From positions 496,001 through 560,000 of the forward strand of contig NZ_JAKQZC010000003.1 in NCBI RefSeq assembly GCF_023736115.1: 64,000 bases of DNA, read 5' to 3'. Positions 28,703-36,090 of this stretch are shown here, one piece after another; positions within the stretch are counted from its first letter, which is position 1, and each line of letters opens with the position of its first letter. The position numbers and the translations under genes are program-made. This stretch comes from Salinicola avicenniae (GTDB taxonomy: Bacteria > Pseudomonadota > Gammaproteobacteria > Pseudomonadales > Halomonadaceae). The notes under the pieces were generated by a model. It ran no database searches. It was not told the origin of the DNA and saw only the letters and a program-made list of their open reading frames with translations.

Positions 28703-28736
28703 GTCGGTACGGCTGAATGCCTGCGTGACTGCCAAG

Positions 28737-28770
28737 ACACCCCGTCGGCGATGGCCGGCGGGGTGTTTTT
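28737..28770 (+). terminator. suhB terminator
   Basis: A 13-bp stem (ACACCCCGTCGGC with one G-T pair) and a four-base loop are followed by a run of five T, then CTTTT. It lies 34 bases after the suhB stop. Confidence 0.9.
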
Positions 28771-28830: not shown

Positions 28831-29799
28831 CTAGCGCCGAGCGACGCCCGGCAGAATGCACAGCATCTCGAACAGCAGGTTGGCGGCGACCACGGCCGTC
28901 TGACCGTGGGCGTCGTAGGGCGGCGAGACCTCGACCAGATCGCAGCCGACGATGTCGAGACCGTGTGCCCCGCGAATGATTTCCAGCGCCTGCGGGATGG
29001 TCAGGCCACCGATCTCGACCGTGCCGGTACCCGGGGCGTAGGCGGGGTCGAGGCTGTCGATGTCGAAACTCAAGTAGACCGGCCCGCCGCCGACCTTGTC
29101 GCGAATCTCCGCCATCAGCGGTGTCAGGCTCTGGTGCCAGCACGCTTCGGCGGGCACGACGCGGAAGCCCTGTTCGCGCCCCCAGTCGAACTCCTCGGCG
29201 GAGTAGCCGGTGCCGCGCAGACCGATCTGGGCGACCCGGTTCGTATCCAGCAGACCCTCCTCGACCGCGCGACGAAACGGCGTACCGTGGGCGATCTCCT
29301 CGCCGAACATGTGCTCGTTGATATCGGCGTGGGCATCGACATGAATCAGGCCGACCGGGCCGTGCTTCTTGGCCATGGCGCGCAGGATCGGCAGGGCGAT
29401 GGTGTGGTCGCCGCCCAGGGTCAGGGGAATGACGTCGTGCGTCAGCAGGTCGTTATAGTAGCGCTCGATGATGCCGACGCTCTTCTTGAGATCGAAGGTG
29501 TTGATCGGCACATCGCCGATGTCCGCCACCTGCAGGCTTTCGAAGGGGGCGGCGCGGGTCGCCATGTTGAACGGCCGCAGCATGCGTGATTCATCGCGAA
29601 TCTGGCGCGGGCCGAAACGGGTGCCGGGGCGGTTGGAGGTCCCGATGTCCATGGGGATGCCGACGAAGCAGGCATCCAGCCCGGTGGCATCTTTCTGTGT
29701 CGGCAGGCGCATCATGGTAGCGGGGCCGCCGAAGCGAGGCATCTCGTTGCCGCCCAAGGGCTGGTTGAGGCTCGAGGCGTCCGGATGTGGGGTTGTCAT
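28831..29799 (-). CDS. Agmatinase/guanidinobutyrase-type ureohydrolase
   Basis: A 322-residue arginase-superfamily enzyme that should release urea from a guanidino compound with a binuclear metal centre. The metal motifs are LTLGGDHTIALP, LIHVDAHADINEHMFG and YLSFDIDSLDPAYAPG. The N-terminal QPLGGNEMPRFGG and GTSNRPGTRFGPRQIR resemble 4-guanidinobutyrases (GbuA) and bacterial agmatinases more than arginase. The usual GTGTP segment reads GTGTVE here. The ATG at 29799 follows AGGAGAATCC. It is last in a five-gene sigma-54 operon, 44 bases after the transporter gene, so the substrate probably arrives by that transporter. Agmatine, guanidinobutyrate or guanidine are all possible. Confidence 0.88.
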   Translation of the reverse strand: MTTPHPDASSLNQPLGGNEMPRFGGPATMMRLPTQKDATGLDACFVGIPMDIGTSNRPGTRFGPRQIRDESRMLRPFNMATRAAPFESLQVADIGDVPINTFDLKKSVGIIERYYNDLLTHDVIPLTLGGDHTIALPILRAMAKKHGPVGLIHVDAHADINEHMFGEEIAHGTPFRRAVEEGLLDTNRVAQIGLRGTGYSAEEFDWGREQGFRVVPAEACWHQSLTPLMAEIRDKVGGGPVYLSFDIDSLDPAYAPGTGTVEIGGLTIPQALEIIRGAHGLDIVGCDLVEVSPPYDAHGQTAVVAANLLFEMLCILPGVARR

Positions 29800-29843
29800 G
29801 GGGATTCTCCTGGGGCGGCACGTCGGTGCCACCGTGTCTTGTG

Positions 29844-31367
29844 TCACGCGTCGGCGGGTGTCGACTCGAGTCCGATAAAGCGTTTGAGGCGCGCATCAGC
29901 GCTGGTGCGAATGGCGGCGGGCGGAGCGTCGGTCTGTACCTCGCCGTGTTCCATGAACACCACGCGGTCGGCGATCGACATCGCGAACTCCATCTCATGG
30001 GTGACGATCAGCATCGTCATCCCTTCTTCCGCCAGATCGCGAATGACCTTGAGTACGTCGCCGACCAGCTCCGGGTCGAGCGCTGAAGTTGGCTCGTCGA
30101 ACAGCATGATGTCGGGCTGCATGGCCAATGCCCGGGCGATGGCGACGCGCTGCTGCTGGCCACCGGAGAGCTGGTGCGGGTACTTGTCGGCGTGTGCCAG
30201 CAGGCCGACCTTGTCGAGCAGCGCCAGCGCCGTGTCTCGCTTGGCGGCGCCCTTGCCCATGGCGTGGTAGCGCGGCCCCATCAGCACGTTGTCGACGATG
30301 GTGCGATGAGGGAACAGATTGAAGCCTTGGAAGACCATGCCTACGCGGTGGATGCCGGCACGGAAACTGGCCGACTGGCGCTCGCCTGCCTGCAGGAAAC
30401 TCTCGCCGAAGAGCACGATCTCGCCGCCATCCAACGGTTCGAGGCCGTTCACGGTGCGAATCAGCGAGGTCTTGCCGCTGCCGGACGGGCCGATGATCGT
30501 GATCACTTCGCCAGCGCCGACCTGGATATCGATCCCCTTGAGGACTTCATGGTCGCCGTAGCGCTTGTGAATATCGCGCAGCTGCAGGGCGGGGGGCTGC
30601 CCGGCGCTGGGTGTCACGCCGGCGGCACGCGGTGGCGGCGGGAGCTGATCACGGAGCTTAGCCACCTGGTCGTCGCTCAGGGTCGGGGCGCGGCGTTTCT
30701 GCAGGTCGAGATGACGCTCCAGCCACTGCAGCAGCCAGCCGACCACGGTGACGATCATCACGTAGTAGATGGCCACTGCTGCCAGCGTCTCCAGGACCAG
30801 GAAGTTGGAGGCATAGAGGCGCTGACCGACCAGCAGGATCTCCGTCAGCGAGATCACCGAGACCAGCGAGGTCAGCTTGACGATGGTGATGTATTCGTTG
30901 GTCAGCGTCGGCAGCGCGATGCGGAACGCCTGCGGCAGCACTACCAGCCGCTGCATGCCGAGAGCGCGGATGCCGAGCGCACGGGCGGCCTCACGCTGGC
31001 CTTGCGGCACCGAGAGCAGGCCGCCGCGATGAATCTCCGCCATGTAGGCGGCTTCGGTCAGGATCAGCGAGATCAGGCCGGCATAGAACGACTGCGACAG
31101 CACCCCGCGTAACGAGGGCACCAGCTGGGGCAGGTTGTAGACGAAGATCAGCAGCACCAGCAGCGGTACGCTGCGGAAGAACCAGATGTAGAGCGAAACC
31201 GGCCAGCGCAGCCACGCGTGGCGGGACTGCTTGGCCAGGGCCAGCACGAAACCGATTGCCATGCCGATGAGCCAGGAGAGCAGGCTCAGCTGGATGACGG
31301 TCAGGCAGGCGCGCCAGAAATCGCCCACCGAGAACAGCGACAGGAAGTAGGGCCAATCGAATGGCAT
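29844..31367 (-). CDS. Fused amino-acid ABC transporter permease/ATP-binding protein
   Basis: A 507-residue fusion of two transporter parts. Residues 1-235 form a HisM/GlnP-type permease with about five membrane helices and the EAA loop EAARALGIRALGMQRLVVLP. After a Pro-rich linker, residues 265-500 form a polar-amino-acid ATPase: Walker A GPSGSGKTS (about 296), Q-loop FQGFNLFPH, signature LSGGQQQRVAIARAL, Walker B MLFDEPTSALD and switch HE in IVTHEME. In most systems these are separate genes. The ATG at 31367 has GAGG upstream; an ATG/GTG further upstream is possible. It lies 69 bases after the binding-protein gene and presumably imports the compound processed by this operon. Confidence 0.93.
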   Translation of the reverse strand: MPFDWPYFLSLFSVGDFWRACLTVIQLSLLSWLIGMAIGFVLALAKQSRHAWLRWPVSLYIWFFRSVPLLVLLIFVYNLPQLVPSLRGVLSQSFYAGLISLILTEAAYMAEIHRGGLLSVPQGQREAARALGIRALGMQRLVVLPQAFRIALPTLTNEYITIVKLTSLVSVISLTEILLVGQRLYASNFLVLETLAAVAIYYVMIVTVVGWLLQWLERHLDLQKRRAPTLSDDQVAKLRDQLPPPPRAAGVTPSAGQPPALQLRDIHKRYGDHEVLKGIDIQVGAGEVITIIGPSGSGKTSLIRTVNGLEPLDGGEIVLFGESFLQAGERQSASFRAGIHRVGMVFQGFNLFPHRTIVDNVLMGPRYHAMGKGAAKRDTALALLDKVGLLAHADKYPHQLSGGQQQRVAIARALAMQPDIMLFDEPTSALDPELVGDVLKVIRDLAEEGMTMLIVTHEMEFAMSIADRVVFMEHGEVQTDAPPAAIRTSADARLKRFIGLESTPADA

Positions 31368-31436
31368 CAGCAGCCTCGAAAACGGTCGGGGAAGTCGAAG
31401 GCCGACGACCATGCGGCCGCCGGCACGGGGAGAATG

Positions 31437-32246
31437 TCAGGCGGCTTCCAGGTTGTAGCGTTCGAGCAGCTCACGGTATTCGTCGGTCTGCTTGAACGCC
31501 TCGACGGCCGCTTCCAGGGCATCGTGCAGCGCGTCGTTGTCTTTCTTGACGTAGATGCCCAGGGTTTCCGGATAGATCGCGTGGTCCGAGGTAATCTCGA
31601 TGCGCCCGCGTGCCTTGTCGACGATCGAGTGCGCGGCGCTGAGGATTTCCATATGCGCCTGGATGTTGCCGGACAGCAGCGCCTGCGAGGTTTCCGACGT
31701 GGTCGGGAATTCGCGGATATCGATCGGTTCTTCGCCGTTGGCCCCGCAGTAGTCCGTCGACAGCGCGTTGAGCTTGGCGACCCAGGAGGTGCCCTGCTGC
31801 AGGCCGACGGTCAGGCCGCAGAGATCCTCCGGCTCTGCCGGCCGGACATCGCTGGCGGCGGTCACCATGATCGCGGCGCCGGTCTGTGCGTAGGGGATGG
31901 CATCCGCCTGCTTGGTGCGATCGGGCAGGATGTACATGCCGGAAATGATGGTGTCGAAGCGGCCGCTGTTGAGACCCAGGATCAGGTTGGGGAAGCGAGT
32001 GTCGAAGTAGTCGACCTCAAGACCCAGACGCTCGGCGAGCGCTTCGGAGACTTCCGGGTCGAAGCCGACCACGTCGTCGCCGTCATAGGACTCGAACGGC
32101 GGATAAGCGATCTCCATGCCGACGGTCAGTACGCCGTCGTTCAGCGTCGGCGGCGTCTCGATCGCCAGGCTGGGACCGGTGGTGAGCAGGCCGAGCAGGC
32201 CCGCGCCTAGAGCGGAGAGAGCGGTCTTGCGAATGTCTAATGTCAT
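31437..32246 (-). CDS. Polar amino acid ABC transporter substrate-binding protein
   Basis: A 269-residue periplasmic binding protein (SBP_bac_3 family). A signal peptide (about 1-28, ending near PSLA) precedes the mature start. The family features are LTVGMEIAYPPFESYDG, VVGFDPEVSEALAERLG, PNLILGLNSGRFDTIISGM and GLTVGLQQGTSWV. Two cysteines (in EDLCGLTVG and STDYCGANG) could form a disulfide. The ATG follows AGGAACC. It is the third gene of the operon; a 150-base gap separates it from the oxygenase gene. Ligand is probably a basic or guanidino amino acid, by inference from neighbours. Confidence 0.92.
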   Translation of the reverse strand: MTLDIRKTALSALGAGLLGLLTTGPSLAIETPPTLNDGVLTVGMEIAYPPFESYDGDDVVGFDPEVSEALAERLGLEVDYFDTRFPNLILGLNSGRFDTIISGMYILPDRTKQADAIPYAQTGAAIMVTAASDVRPAEPEDLCGLTVGLQQGTSWVAKLNALSTDYCGANGEEPIDIREFPTTSETSQALLSGNIQAHMEILSAAHSIVDKARGRIEITSDHAIYPETLGIYVKKDNDALHDALEAAVEAFKQTDEYRELLERYNLEAA

Positions 32247-32315
32247 GGTAGTGGTTCCTGTTGGGTTTGTTATTGGCTACGGGGTTCAGCGTTGTCTGTC
32301 TGGCGCGCTGTCATT

Positions 32316-32333
32316 GTCGAGGCCGGCCTCGAC
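32316..32333. repeat. 18-bp perfect palindrome in the operon gap
   Basis: GTCGAGGCCGGCCTCGAC is a perfect palindrome in the gap between the oxygenase and binding-protein genes. Next to it are three copies of a GCCGTTCGG-like motif. It may set differential expression of the binding protein or bind a regulator. Confidence 0.45.
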
Positions 32334-32397
32334 GAGGGGCCGTTCGGCCGTTCGGCCTTTCGCCGCGCGCGAGGTCGCAGTGCCGCGGGGGCGGCGG

Positions 32398-33477
32398 TTA
32401 CTCCTCGGCCTGTGCATGCTTGAGGTGGCCGAAGCTGGAGGGCTTGCGTGAGCCTTCCGGCAGCGCCAGCTCACCGTTCGCGACCTTGCGCTGCAGATAG
32501 CGATAGGTCTGCAGTGCCTGGCTCCACATGTGATCGCCGACGGCGACGGCCTCGTAGTTCGTGCTGCCCTCGGCGAACTGTGGCAGCGGCTTCACCTGGG
32601 TGTGGTAGTCGCAGGCGTAGAACAGCGGGAAGGAGTAGCGCTCCTCCTTGACACTGCGCACGCGGTGCGCCGTGGCGACGAAGGCGCCGTTGGTCATGAT
32701 CTCGAGCATGTCGCCGATATTGACCACGAAGCCGTTGTCGACCGGCGGGGCGTCGATCCACTCGCCGAGATCGTTCATGACCTCGAGGCCTGGGGTGCGC
32801 GAGTAGAGGATAGTGAAGCATTCATAATCGGTATGGGCACCGATGCCGGGGGCATCCTGGGCCTCGCCGTCGAACGGGTAGTGGATCAGGCGCAGCTTGG
32901 AGGGCGGGGCCGTCACCAGCGATTCGAAATAGTTCTCGGGCTGCCCCAGCGCCAGCGCGAAGCCGCGGAAGAGTCGCGTGCCGAGAGCGAAGACCGCGTC
33001 GTAATAGGCCTTGATGGCTTCGTGGAAGCCCGGCAGCGGCGGCCATTCGTTGGGGCCGATCAGCGGTGTACCGGCCACGTAGAGCGGGTGATCCTCGCCG
33101 ACCTCGAAACCGACGTCGAAGGCTTCCTTGTGATCGGTCTTCTTCGAGTAGACCTCTTCGCCTTCGGGCACGAATCCCTTGTGGCTGCGCGAGGTGCCGA
33201 TGTACTGCTGCATCTTGGCCTCGAGCGGCTGGCCGAAGTAGCGGCGGGCGGCGTCGTGCAGATCGTCGATCAGCCTCGGGTCAATGCCGTGACCGACGAT
33301 ATGCAGAAAGCCGATGTTGCGTGCGGCATCGCCCAAAGCGTCGGCCACGGCCTGGCGTTCGGTCAAACGCTCGCTGAACAGGCCGCTGATATCGATGACC
33401 GGGATTTCGGTGAAGCGCTTGAGGTTGTCGGTGTTGTCTTTATCTTTATCTTTGTCTTTGTTGTGGAAGTCGTTCAT
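32398..33477 (-). CDS. 2-oxoglutarate/Fe(II)-dependent oxygenase, isopenicillin-N-synthase-like
   Basis: A 359-residue non-heme iron oxygenase. The N-terminal DIOX_N part has [10 protein letters not shown] and [12 protein letters not shown]. The metal facial triad is His and Asp in [13 protein letters not shown] (about 220) plus the distal His in ATAHRVRSV; the 2-oxoglutarate Arg lies in [10 protein letters not shown]. The segment [11 protein letters not shown] resembles the GEE region of ethylene-forming-enzyme-like proteins, which bind arginine. This is a resemblance seen by eye, not a proof. Residues 5-14 form a Lys-Asp repeat encoded by imperfect hexamers. The ATG follows AAGGAG. It is the second gene of the operon, 18 bases after the TIM-barrel gene. 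Likely action is hydroxylation of the imported compound. Confidence 0.88.
33427..33460. repeat. Hexanucleotide repeat at the 5' end of the oxygenase gene
   Basis: Five imperfect TT(A/G)TCT units in a row encode alternating Lys and Asp near the protein N-terminus. Gain or loss of a unit keeps the frame, so length variation would be tolerated. Confidence 0.6.
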
Positions 33478-33495
33478 GCCTGGCTCCTTCTCGAA

Positions 33496-34365
33496 TCAGG
33501 AAGTGTGGGACCGCTGTGAAAAGTGCTGGGCAAAGTGGCGGCGCTCGCAGTCGGCCATCCAGCGGTTCAGCTGCCACAGGTCGGCGACCGGAACGTCAGT
33601 AAAGGGAAGGTGGTGGAGGTAGCCGTCGACCCCGAACTCCGGTGTCAGGGTGGTGGCCTCGTGGCCGGCGCGGCGCTGCGCTTCCCAGATCGCTGCCCAG
33701 TGTCGTTGGTGAAACGCCAGCGCGTCGGCGTGTTCCGGTGCGGCCGGGTGGGGTACCTGCGGCCCCTGGTCGTAGCCGACCCGAGCCTGGATGTGGTGCA
33801 CGCGCTCGATGAACGGCGTGAGGTCGTCGCACGGGTCGTCGAGCAGGCGCTCGCAGGTCACCACCCAGTGGCTGATATCGCTGGTGAAGCGCAGGTCGGG
33901 CAGCTGTGCGATCAGGTCGAGCGTGACCCAGGGGCTGTAGAGCGAACGTGCCCGATGCGTCTCGAAGACACAGGTCAGCCCGCTGGCATCAATGATCTCC
34001 ATCGCACGGCCGAAGAAGTCGACCTGCTGTGCCAGCGGCCAGCGGTCATTACCCGCCAGCACGTTGACGAAGCGCGGCGCCAGTGCCTGCATCTGCTGAA
34101 GCTGAAGGGCGAGATCGTCGAGGTGCTGCTGTGGGGTATGGGCCTGATGAGGCAGGACCGGCGCCGAGGTAAAGAGGATGCCGATATAGGGCAGGCTATG
34201 CGACTGGAGAAAGCGTGCGAACGCCTGGCGCTCGTTCGCATCCTGCGGCATGCGTGCCTCCAGGCCGTCGAAGCCGGCGGCTCTGGCTTCGCGGGCAGCC
34301 TGTTCCCAGGTGCCCTGAAAGCCCCATAGCGAACGGAAGGTTTCCAGCTTGAAAGAGTCGTCCAA
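33496..34365 (-). CDS. Xylose-isomerase-like TIM-barrel protein (sugar phosphate isomerase/epimerase family)
   Basis: A 289-residue predicted AP_endonuc_2-type TIM barrel. Features are FRSLWGFQGTWEQAAREARA near the start, GFDGLEARMP, GLTCVFETHRAR (candidate metal Glu and His), LRFTSDISHWV, RVHHIQARVGYDQGPQV and TLTPEFGVDGYLH. The His-x-Gln-Ala-Arg-Val-Gly segment is typical of the hydroxypyruvate isomerase/epimerase group. The start is a TTG at 34365 with GGAG six bases upstream; no ATG fits. It is the first gene after the sigma-54 promoter. Its reaction is unknown; it may isomerise or cleave a product of the oxygenase. Confidence 0.82.
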   Translation of the reverse strand: MDDSFKLETFRSLWGFQGTWEQAAREARAAGFDGLEARMPQDANERQAFARFLQSHSLPYIGILFTSAPVLPHQAHTPQQHLDDLALQLQQMQALAPRFVNVLAGNDRWPLAQQVDFFGRAMEIIDASGLTCVFETHRARSLYSPWVTLDLIAQLPDLRFTSDISHWVVTCERLLDDPCDDLTPFIERVHHIQARVGYDQGPQVPHPAAPEHADALAFHQRHWAAIWEAQRRAGHEATTLTPEFGVDGYLHHLPFTDVPVADLWQLNRWMADCERRHFAQHFSQRSHTS

Positions 34366-34409
34366 GGATCGCTCCGTGATTGTCGTTGTGAGCGTGTGAC
34401 TACGACTAA

Positions 34410-34425
34410 AGCAGAAAACGTGCCA
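34410..34425 (-). promoter_or_regulatory. Sigma-54 promoter of the ureohydrolase/oxygenase operon
   Basis: The minus strand reads TGGCACG-TTTT-CTGCT. The -24 GG and -12 GC are separated by exactly ten bases, and only the first base of the -12 element departs from TTGC. Transcription should start near 34399, about 34 bases before the TTG of the first gene. The divergent neighbour encodes a sigma-54 activator. Confidence 0.8.
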
Positions 34426-34510
34426 ACCCAGTCCCAAGCGGTATTCAGCCTCGGTCGCCAGTCTTGCTGACCTACGGGGGTGCCGGTTCCCGGTGTCCTT
34501 GATGGCGTTC

Positions 34511-34597
34511 CGGGCCGTTAGTCGTTTTTTTGGCCCGCAGAGTGTGGTGCTTGTCGGTCAATGCATTCTTGAATCAATATGGGCGACAAATGATTCA
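34511..34597. promoter_or_regulatory. Candidate activator-binding inverted repeats
   Basis: Two inverted repeats lie between the sigma-54 promoter and the regulator gene: CGGGCC/GGCCCG (34511-34516 and 34532-34537) and TGAATCA/TGATTCA (34570-34576 and 34591-34597). They are 90-190 bases upstream of the promoter, a usual distance for enhancer sites of sigma-54 activators. Which one is used is not known. Confidence 0.4.
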
Positions 34598-34611
34598 TTA
34601 AGGCATCAGTG

Positions 34612-36090
34612 ATGCAGAAACGTATGGGTGACGAGACGCCGCTCGATCGGCTCGTGCTGGAGGCGCTGATCCAGACCGCACAGGATCATCTCTTTATCGT
34701 CGATGAATCGGGGGCGATCCTGGCGGTCAGCCCGAGCAGTGCGGCGGTCTACGGCATGAGTCGAGAGGCGCTCTGCAACACCACGGTGCAGGCGCTGGAA
34801 GCCGATGGCGTGCTGTCTCCGTCGGTGTCGATGGAGGTCATGCGGACCGGGCGTTCGGCACAGCTGCTGCAGCGCACGGCGACCGGCCGGCAGGTCATTG
34901 CGGAGGCGCATCCGATTTACTGGCAGGGCCGGCTCAAGCGGATCATCAGCCGGTCGATGGACATGACCGATGTGCGCCTTCTACAGGACGAATATGCGCT
35001 GCTACAACGGCGCTTCAATGCTCATCTCTCGCGTGGTGGTGGCGCCGGCGAGGCGGATATGGAAGTGCCCGGACTCGAGATTCGCAGTCAGGTGATGCGT
35101 GAGGTGGCACAGCTGCTCGAGCGCGTCGCCGCCACCGACGCCACCGTACTCATGCTCGGCGAATCGGGGGTCGGCAAGACCGCCTTTGCCCGGCAGTTGC
35201 ATCGCTGGAGCCGTCGCGGCGAGGGTGCCTTCGTCGATGTCAACTGTGCGGCGATTCCGGAGTCGCTGTTCGAGTCGGAGATGTTCGGCTATCAGCCGGG
35301 CGCCTTCAGCGGTGCCGCACGCCAGGGCAAGGCGGGGCTGCTCGAACAGGCGCATGGCGGCACGCTGTTTCTCGACGAGATCGGCGAGTTGCCACTGGCG
35401 ATGCAGTCGAAGCTGTTGAAGGTGATTCAGGATGGCTCGCTGACCCGGCTGGGCGATACGCGCTCGCGTCAGGTCGATTTTCGACTGGTGGTCGCCACCA
35501 ATCAGGATCTGGCCAAGCGGGTGGAGGAGGGCACGTTTCGTCTCGACCTCTATTATCGGCTCAACGTGATTCCGGTGACGCTGCCGCCGCTGCGCGAGCG
35601 TCGCGAGGATATCCTTGGGATCGCTGAGCGACAGCTTGCGACGCTCAACCGTCGCTATGGTGGCGAAAAGGTGATGCACCCTCATATCTGGTCGGAGTTG
35701 ATGAGCAACGACTGGCCCGGCAACGTACGCGAACTGGAAAACTGGCTGGAGCGCGCCTGGTTGTCGGCCGACAGCGAGGTGATCGGGGCGCCGATGATGG
35801 CGGCGCCGGCCAGCGAGTGCGCGACGCGGTCCGACGCAGTTGTGGTGAGCCCCGCGGTTGATGAGCGTGGTGCGCCGGCGCTGGCGGATGAATCGGCGCT
35901 GTTGGCCCCAGGACAGAGTCTAAAAGCGGCGCTCGATGCGTCCGAACGGCGGATACTCGCGTCGCTGGCCAAGGAACTGACCAGCACCTACGCCATGGCC
36001 GACCGGCTCGGGATCAGTCAGCCCACGGCTGTACGCAAGCTACGCCGGCACGGGATTCGGCTGCGAGGGTCAGCCGCAGCCGAGAATTGA
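34612..36090 (+). CDS. Sigma-54-dependent transcriptional activator (PAS-AAA+-HTH)
   Basis: A 492-residue activator. An N-terminal PAS-like sensor (about 12-125) contains DHLFIVDESGAILAVSPSS. The AAA+ domain (about 150-380) has Walker A GESGVGKTAFARQLH, Walker B GGTLFLDEIGELPL and the sigma-54 contact loop as GAFSGA (about 229-234) in place of GAFTGA. The C-terminal HTH (about 460-485) is TYAMADRLGISQPTAVRKLR, of the TyrR/PrdR kind. There is no receiver domain, so a small ligand sensed by PAS is likely. The ATG at 34612 follows AAGG; GTG at 34609 is possible. It is divergent from the operon it probably controls. Confidence 0.92.
   Translation: MQKRMGDETPLDRLVLEALIQTAQDHLFIVDESGAILAVSPSSAAVYGMSREALCNTTVQALEADGVLSPSVSMEVMRTGRSAQLLQRTATGRQVIAEAHPIYWQGRLKRIISRSMDMTDVRLLQDEYALLQRRFNAHLSRGGGAGEADMEVPGLEIRSQVMREVAQLLERVAATDATVLMLGESGVGKTAFARQLHRWSRRGEGAFVDVNCAAIPESLFESEMFGYQPGAFSGAARQGKAGLLEQAHGGTLFLDEIGELPLAMQSKLLKVIQDGSLTRLGDTRSRQVDFRLVVATNQDLAKRVEEGTFRLDLYYRLNVIPVTLPPLRERREDILGIAERQLATLNRRYGGEKVMHPHIWSELMSNDWPGNVRELENWLERAWLSADSEVIGAPMMAAPASECATRSDAVVVSPAVDERGAPALADESALLAPGQSLKAALDASERRILASLAKELTSTYAMADRLGISQPTAVRKLRRHGIRLRGSAAAEN

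Follow-up and report, generated by a model that had tools for sequence, protein, structure and literature searches.

What could join a 2-oxoglutarate (2OG)/Fe(II) oxygenase to a guanidino-specific ureohydrolase in a single operon? The question is raised by a locus of Salinicola avicenniae, found at positions 28831 to 36090 of the 64,000-nucleotide stretch of DNA analyzed here (the window), in which a xylose-isomerase-like triosephosphate isomerase (TIM) barrel protein (here called TIM), the oxygenase (OXY), a binding protein, a fused permease-ATPase and a GbuA-type ureohydrolase (GbuA) are encoded in this order on the minus strand (34365 to 28831), with a putative activator gene (REG) divergent from them. 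The first-pass annotation of this DNA had described six genes with this order and these strands, all of which are present in the list of open reading frames (ORFs), and had suggested a joint oxidative and ureohydrolytic route, which is supported by conserved linkage, as GbuA lies nearby at 13 of the 17 loci of the window's oxygenase clade. We give an about even chance to a route of import, oxidative N-dealkylation by OXY and TIM, and guanidinobutyrase action, in which all substrates, all activities and the lyase role of TIM are predicted. Gene content, linkage, the promoter-like element, family membership and the exclusive pairing of OXY were established by computation. The features of the locus are as follows.

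33496..34365, minus strand: xylose-isomerase-like TIM barrel, predicted hemiaminal lyase (AP_endonuc_2, 45 bits)
32398..33477, minus strand: 2OG/Fe(II) oxygenase (OXY), MgdH-like clade (PF14226, DIOX_N, and PF03171, 2OG-FeII_Oxy; tree position)
31437..32246, minus strand: periplasmic binding protein, amino-acid type (SBP_bac_3)
29844..31412, minus strand: ATP-binding cassette (ABC) importer, permease-ATPase fusion, 522 aa (PF00528, BPD_transp_1, and PF00005, ABC_tran)
28831..29847, minus strand: GbuA-type ureohydrolase, predicted 4-guanidinobutyrase (PF00491, Arginase, 319 bits; 3NIO, 525 bits; Met180); start uncertain, GTG 29847 or ATG 29799
34410..34426, minus strand: sigma-54 (-24/-12) promoter-like element of the operon (pattern match; similar elements in relatives)
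34570..34597, no strand: inverted repeat TGAATCA-N14-TGATTCA, likely enhancer (unique in the window; half-sites in relatives)
34609..36090, plus strand: PAS/AAA+ sigma-54 activator (REG) with helix-turn-helix (PF00158 and PF18024; PF00989 just below cut-off)
28734..28769, no strand: terminator-like hairpin with a 16-pair stem, between GbuA and the convergent neighbor gene (stem found; terminator-like sites in the region number 4 versus 3.5 by chance, i.e., near chance)

In the proposed route, the importer would bring in a guanidino carboxylic acid with an extra alkyl group on a guanidino nitrogen, candidates being N-methyl- or N,N-dimethyl-4-guanidinobutyrate, which are expected breakdown products of methylarginines. 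OXY is predicted to place a hydroxyl on the N-bound alkyl carbon of the guanidino group, giving a hemiaminal that TIM would split into 4-guanidinobutyrate and an aldehyde, which for a methyl group would be formaldehyde. GbuA would then convert 4-guanidinobutyrate into gamma-aminobutyrate and urea, and the urease of the genome, of which a gene is present, would release ammonia from urea. The PAS/sigma-54 activator, found at gbuA in family relatives, would turn the operon on. The N-methyl and N,N-dimethyl forms lead among the candidates because MgdH demethylates its substrate (PMC12508155) and because of a link to 2-ketoarginine decarboxylase genes that is described below.

The system with which the locus is best compared is MgdH/MgdL of Vreelandella boliviensis, described in PMC12508155 as a proven methylguanidine demethylase, in which MgdL is the hemiaminal lyase that splits N-(hydroxymethyl)guanidine (half-life of >1 h) and the genes stand in a carboxylase operon with guanidine-I and guanidine-II riboswitches. 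The window resembles this system in its oxygenase clade (as judged by operon layout), in a same-strand partner gene beside the oxygenase and in an ABC importer, but differs in having TIM as the partner, an amino-acid-type importer, GbuA as the downstream enzyme and sigma-54 control; no MgdL neighbor or other MgdL-family ORF, no carboxylase operon and no guanidine riboswitch were found for the window (PMC12508155 for the compared traits).

Relatives of OXY were present in 32 of 201 genomes of the family at E values of 1e-40 or better and in 23 of 390 genomes of the order at 1e-80, and a scan of genome contigs found only Salinicola rhizosphaerae (its oxygenase 96% identical to that of the window) and one distant locus in a metagenome-assembled genome. 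Loci were fetched with their surroundings and neighboring genes were labeled by BLAST. The tree was a quick one with several long branches and support from the Shimodaira-Hasegawa-like approximate likelihood ratio test (SH-aLRT) only. L034, a duplicate of the S. rhizosphaerae locus L032, was excluded from the tree and group counts and counted in the 54-row pairing tally below; L035 was excluded from alignment A2; the truncated OXY of L066 and over-long ORF starts in L040, L042, L109 and some others were kept. Residues H215, D217, H271 and R280 (the HxD...H and RxS of the 2OG/Fe(II) site), as well as S282, were invariant in the 7 rows of alignment A3.

Five sets of loci were distinguished. Set A, the clade of the window, comprises 17 rows on one branch (SH-aLRT 98) and by its tree position is sister to the oxygenases of set B, which are 53 to 59% identical to the window OXY and whose operon layout matches that of the proven MgdH. 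All 16 loci of set B carry a gene of the urea/guanidine carboxylase type (labeled urea carboxylase by NCBIfam), UAAP1, UAAP2, allophanate hydrolase and MgdL, and one of them (L046) has both guanidine-I and guanidine-II riboswitches. Set C comprises 13 loci, 12 of them with a diverged MgdL-family gene, and set D comprises 6 loci with about 40% identity to the window OXY, all with an MgdL-family gene; in set E (L055 and L119) OXY stands with TIM. The partner proteins of sets C and D were MgdL homologues by profile-profile comparison (probability, 99.5), and the D and R of the D-x-R motif were invariant in 33 of 33 MgdL-family rows, with a spacing that fits the published D49/R51.

The pairing of OXY was exclusive. 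Among the 54 rows with at least 40% identity, OXY was accompanied by the MgdL family in 34, by TIM in 19, by neither in 1 (L167) and by both in none; the 13 rows below 40% identity had neither partner. The MgdL-family profile matched none of the 222 ORFs of the window, the TIM profile matched the window TIM gene, and an MgdL-family gene was absent at the 17 other TIM-paired rows with at least 60% identity (two of which are one locus). On the quick tree, the OXY branches with TIM imply two changes, of which the starred branches force only one. In L055 and L119, OXY and TIM stand with a different type of binding protein, and neither a carboxylase nor GbuA is present; a second, separate swap from MgdL to TIM is possible there.

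TIM was also found apart from OXY. At an E value of 1e-20, TIM alone was present in 25 of 390 order, 8 of 369 class and 9 of 398 phylum genomes, counts that each include the genome of the window and come from overlapping samples (the phylum total consists of the window's genome and eight of the same order). At 15 of the 19 fetched TIM loci without OXY (L116 to L118, L120 to L126, L130, L131, L133, L135, and L136), the stretch contained a gene for a membrane di-iron protein of the FA_desaturase type (a label confirmed by Pfam for L116, L131 and L136), a fold that we take to be that of a di-iron oxygenase; two of the other four loci are short contigs (L127 and L134). MgdL was found at none of the 19 loci, UAAP or carboxylase genes at 5 of them, and guanidine riboswitches at 6 of the 14 scanned (L123, L126, L130, L131, L133, and L136); the guanidine-II riboswitches of L133 and L136 immediately precede the di-iron gene, and that of L130 overlaps this gene's longest ORF at the 5' end. 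The membrane di-iron proteins near TIM are likely a second kind of hydroxylase for methylguanidine or a related compound. The scans for riboswitches took in 14 of these 19 loci (all but L118, L122, L124, L128, and L129), 14 of the 16 other set A loci (all but L032 and L035), both set E loci, 1 of 16 loci of set B, 7 of 13 of set C and 0 of 6 of set D.

Some of these operons hold further genes. Creatininase-family and glutamine-synthetase-like genes occur in or beside guanidine operons in L126, L135 and L136 (with TIM) and in L169 (with an MgdL-type oxygenase), perhaps as a creatinine or gamma-glutamylation branch. In L123, L131, L133 and L135, genes for a metallo-beta-lactamase-fold protein (by Pfam for L131) and for a transporter, which we take to be EamA-like, lie next to the di-iron gene and TIM or in the interval separating them.

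Most simply, TIM would be a second, unrelated hemiaminal lyase in the place of MgdL, because TIM follows two unrelated oxygenases and replaces, beside one of them, the enzyme that splits N-(hydroxymethyl)guanidine. Residues E134, H136, R137, D162, H165, H190, R194 and E242 (numbered from the codon at 34362) were invariant in 19 TIM rows and would suit a metal-dependent active site. TIM falls in AP_endonuc_2 and hence outside the beta-barrel family with D49/R51 to which MgdL belongs. The initial description of the gene as an isomerase-like TIM barrel was borne out as to fold family, but an isomerase role is not required, since TIM stands where MgdL does; a plain sugar isomerase was rejected on the basis of gene context and of the exclusive pairing with OXY in place of MgdL. 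That xylose-isomerase-like TIM barrels form an independently evolved hemiaminal-breaking class serving two oxygenases, and with the 2OG type open a new N-dealkylation route to guanidinobutyrase, we regard as a tentative proposal with a chance slightly below even.

The nature of the substrate was approached through the genes that accompany OXY and TIM in set A. GbuA matched best, among Protein Data Bank (PDB) entries, the guanidinobutyrase of Pseudomonas aeruginosa (3NIO; 525 bits over residues 26 to 338), and more weakly 3-guanidinopropionase (3NIP; 324 bits) and chain 7ESR (144 bits), the latter presumably the guanidine hydrolase Sll1077. Met180 of the window GbuA corresponds to M161 of GbuA, described as a substrate-recognizing residue in PMC10833137, and was Met in 17 of 17 aligned rows. 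With an arginase-family fold similar to that of 3NIO and the recognition Met in place, hydrolysis of 4-guanidinobutyrate is predicted, and the view of this protein as a guanidino-specific ureohydrolase holds. It is the sole arginase-family gene of the genome. Within the fetched stretch, GbuA was encoded at 13 of the 17 set A loci, the window included, in several gene orders, and elsewhere in the genome (72 to 73% identity) in the remaining 4, so that the genes are not rare neighbors. Besides the window, GbuA was present at 12 of 16 set A loci versus none of the 29 in sets B and C (P = 6e-8 by one-sided Fisher test, ignoring shared ancestry). Because such neighborhood counts share ancestry, more independent evidence comes from the rearranged gene orders, from the association of TIM with two unrelated oxygenases and from the two OXY branches with TIM. 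A search for the five-gene order in other genomes, as had been advised, recovered the same linked genes in orders that vary between lineages: TIM-OXY-SBP-ABC-GbuA (SBP, binding protein) in Salinicola, GbuA-TIM-OXY-SBP-ABC in L038 and, with an aldolase and a reductase added, in L110 to L115 and L132; in L036 and L037, GbuA lies beside REG, 6 to 8 kb away.

The importer follows the same division. Relatives of the fused importer (59 to 98% identity; two separate genes in L114) and of its SBP_bac_3-type binding protein were found at 16 of 16 set A loci besides the window, and importers of this type at none of sets B and C, where 22 of 29 loci have a binding protein of another type, presumably NitT-like. 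In the binding protein, Arg110 and Ile201 were invariant in 17 of 17 set A rows, and AncQR has Asp at the position of Ile201; we take it that in amino-acid binders the Arg110 position holds the carboxylate and an Asp at the Ile201 position holds the ammonium group. UAAP or carboxylase genes were found at 0 of 16 set A loci besides the window. In OXY, Lys100 and Lys194 were invariant in the 17 set A oxygenases and absent from the 29 rows of sets B and C and from both rows of set E; sets B, C, D and E have Arg or Ser and Gln, respectively, at these positions. As set E has TIM yet lacks these lysines, they appear to track the substrate (transporter and hydrolase) rather than the lyase. By our own mapping, which uses offset from the HYP motif alone, Lys194 would match His169 of ethylene-forming enzyme (EFE), which makes a water-mediated hydrogen bond to the arginine site according to PMC11025135.

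Genes of the 5-guanidino-2-oxopentanoate (2-ketoarginine) decarboxylase family form a further link. In three of the four set A genomes with GbuA away from the locus, a relative of this decarboxylase lies, by coordinates, about 3 to 4 kb from the distant GbuA; no match at E 1e-100 was obtained in the 13 other genomes examined, that of the window included, and an ordinary arginine transaminase route supplying GbuA with its substrate was therefore rejected for the window genome. A gene of this family with a divergent LysR gene stands beside TIM-OXY in L106 (10477-13188; 873 bits to the NCBIfam model, cut-off 500) and L107 (5844-8541), and both genomes have a second copy near gbuA. In L057, L060 and L066 of set D, OXY (about 40% identity), an MgdL-family partner, a PhyH dioxygenase and another ABC importer, presumably polyamine-like, are found beside gbuA, REG and a decarboxylase gene of the same family (770 bits in L060, cut-off 500; genes 88 and 91% identical to it in L057 and L066). 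Taken together, the importer type, GbuA, the lack of UAAP and carboxylase genes, Lys100/Lys194, Arg110/Ile201 and the decarboxylase links point to a cargo that would be a guanidino carboxylic acid without an alpha-amino group, processed to 4-guanidinobutyrate. The window shares with P. aeruginosa GbuA its closest solved relative and the recognition Met, and differs from that system and the 2-ketoarginine route in that its gbuA lies inside an oxygenase operon with a sigma-54 activator and no decarboxylase match at E 1e-100. The regulator of gbuA in P. aeruginosa is the LysR-type GbuR.

Several observations weigh against the N-dealkylation route. No solved lyase relative of TIM was found: a single-sequence search of the PDB was empty, and the TIM profile gave a weak match to Art22 (E value, 3e-6) and two more with E values above 0.2. 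An AlphaFold model of TIM from two sequences had a predicted local distance difference test score (pLDDT) of 39 and was not used. Set B was equated with the V. boliviensis genes by operon layout, not by letter-by-letter comparison, and set C is termed methylguanidine-like by kinship only, UAAP or carboxylase genes being present at 4 of its 13 loci and guanidine riboswitches at 3 of the 7 scanned. According to PMC12508155 (legend of Fig. 3), MgdH did not take N-monomethylarginine (NMMA) or asymmetric dimethylarginine (ADMA). At 7 set A loci (L110 to L115 and L132), a divergent LysR gene at gbuA replaces the sigma-54 activator. A class II aldolase is encoded at 9 of 16 and a GhrA-like reductase at 7 of 16 set A loci besides the window; the aldolase also occurs at 5 of 6 set D loci versus none of the 29 in sets B and C, where one weak reductase-like match was seen. 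Since an aldolase (and a reductase) is not expected if only formaldehyde leaves, OXY and TIM may take off a larger group than methyl, e.g., carboxymethyl, which would yield glyoxylate. In L110 to L115 and L132, the class II aldolase and the GhrA-like 2-hydroxyacid dehydrogenase end the operon, and the compound on which they act could show which alkyl group is taken off.

The same two enzymes are what favors an unlikely alternative, in which OXY hydroxylates a chain carbon away from the nitrogen, GbuA frees urea, aldolase and reductase degrade the resulting hydroxy acid and TIM is a true isomerase, as its xylose-isomerase-like Pfam family and its acidic and His residues, suited to a metal site, would allow. 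However, the operon of the window has no aldolase or reductase gene, TIM is also found at loci that have guanidine riboswitches, another kind of oxygenase and no aldolase gene, and the mutual exclusion of TIM and MgdL is better suited to a lyase. A very unlikely explanation is that the importer and GbuA serve the uptake and use of 4-guanidinobutyrate, OXY and TIM forming a separate methylguanidine demethylase that shares no more than regulation with them; set E, where OXY and TIM stand with a different binding protein type and GbuA is absent, would fit this, whereas the set A oxygenases form one clade (SH-aLRT 98) with invariant residues of their own and the same importer at 16 of 16 loci, and no guanidine-using enzyme was found in the window genome.

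The first-pass annotation had given hydroxylation of arginine, homoarginine or another guanidino compound, followed by urea release, as an example. If OXY hydroxylated 4-guanidinobutyrate, arginine or homoarginine at the chain carbon adjacent to the guanidino nitrogen, guanidine and an aldehyde would be released, with GbuA acting in parallel or on guanidine. OXY is in the same 2OG oxygenase superfamily as EFE and plant homoarginine 6-hydroxylases, which hydroxylate next to a guanidino nitrogen and free guanidine (PMC11018352 and PMC11025135). The best PDB chain for OXY carries the EFE name (9ovh, 225 bits); chains of other EFE entries, such as 5v2t, match at about 69 bits over partial length, OXY being distant from EFE in sequence. 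The second-best chain belongs to PaIPNS, an IPNS-family oxygenase of P. aeruginosa (6JYV, 190 bits), which has no known function and gave only trace ethylene and uncoupled succinate according to PMC12329707. Thus, the resemblance to EFE noted at the outset stands at the superfamily level, but the GEE motif, then noted only as recalling arginine-binding EFEs, was rejected as a mark of arginine binding because it is common to every OXY row with at least 40% identity among those listed (32 of 67). No urea/guanidine carboxylase match exceeded the cut-off in the genome of the window, which also has no second arginase-family enzyme and no guanidine-I riboswitch (guanidine-II was not sought genome-wide), GbuA retains the 4-guanidinobutyrase recognition Met, and guanidine riboswitches were found at 0 of 14 other set A loci scanned, in neither set E locus and nowhere in the window region. 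The lack of riboswitches in set A speaks against free guanidine as the inducer and does not prove another substrate. With this genome content and riboswitch distribution, release of free guanidine from arginine or homoarginine was rejected as the main route, and guanidine release from any of the three compounds seems decidedly improbable.

The N-dealkylation route uses parts of known kinds, and their combination and the predicted lyase appear new as far as the open-licence literature searched is concerned: those searches turned up neither a TIM-barrel hemiaminal lyase nor a guanidinobutyrase linked to a 2OG oxygenase. If true, the route would explain bacterial use of N-alkylated guanidino acids, such as breakdown products of methylarginines; it would provide a function for a hitherto unassigned TIM-barrel family and suggest one for membrane di-iron oxygenases in guanidine operons, and two unrelated folds would take the same job beside one oxygenase family.

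Control of the operon by sigma-54, proposed from the outset, is supported by the activator domains, a promoter-like element and an upstream repeat. REG matched Sigma54_activat of Pfam with 224 bits, as well as HTH_50, and PAS weakly (21.7 versus a cut-off of 22.6). The element, TTGGCACG-N4-CTGCT at 34410-34426 on the minus strand, is the sole exact match in the 64 kb to a pattern that was shaped after the site had been seen. Matches with at most one mismatch numbered 2 versus a mean of 0.78, and 19 of 100 shuffles reached 2; because this count is not above chance, support for the element comes from its position and recurrence. The TIM start of the longest ORF (34437) was rejected, as the element falls inside the ORF extension, which was judged untranslated, and the likely start is therefore TTG at 34365, preceded by GGAG. 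Farther upstream, TGAATCA-N14-TGATTCA (34570-34597) is the single repeat of its kind in the window, TGAWTCA itself occurring nine times in the 64 kb, and is likely an enhancer for REG. The three traits of a sigma-54 activator system, i.e., an AAA+ activator, a -24/-12 promoter and upstream repeats, were thus found at the sequence level, with binding predicted.

Sigma-54-like elements and TGAWTCA half-sites precede TIM or gbuA in 9 of 9 regions beside REG that were chosen by hand, the window included: TIM in the window, L032 and L035, and gbuA in L036, L037, L038, L057, L060 and L066. The core has one mismatch in five of these regions and two in four (L038, L057, L060, and L066), and in L038 one half-site falls within the sigma-54-like element. 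Elsewhere in the family, homologues of REG were likewise found close to GbuA. Because the elements and half-sites lie before TIM or gbuA beside REG in relatives, REG looks like a gbuA regulator whose target in the window would be the whole operon.

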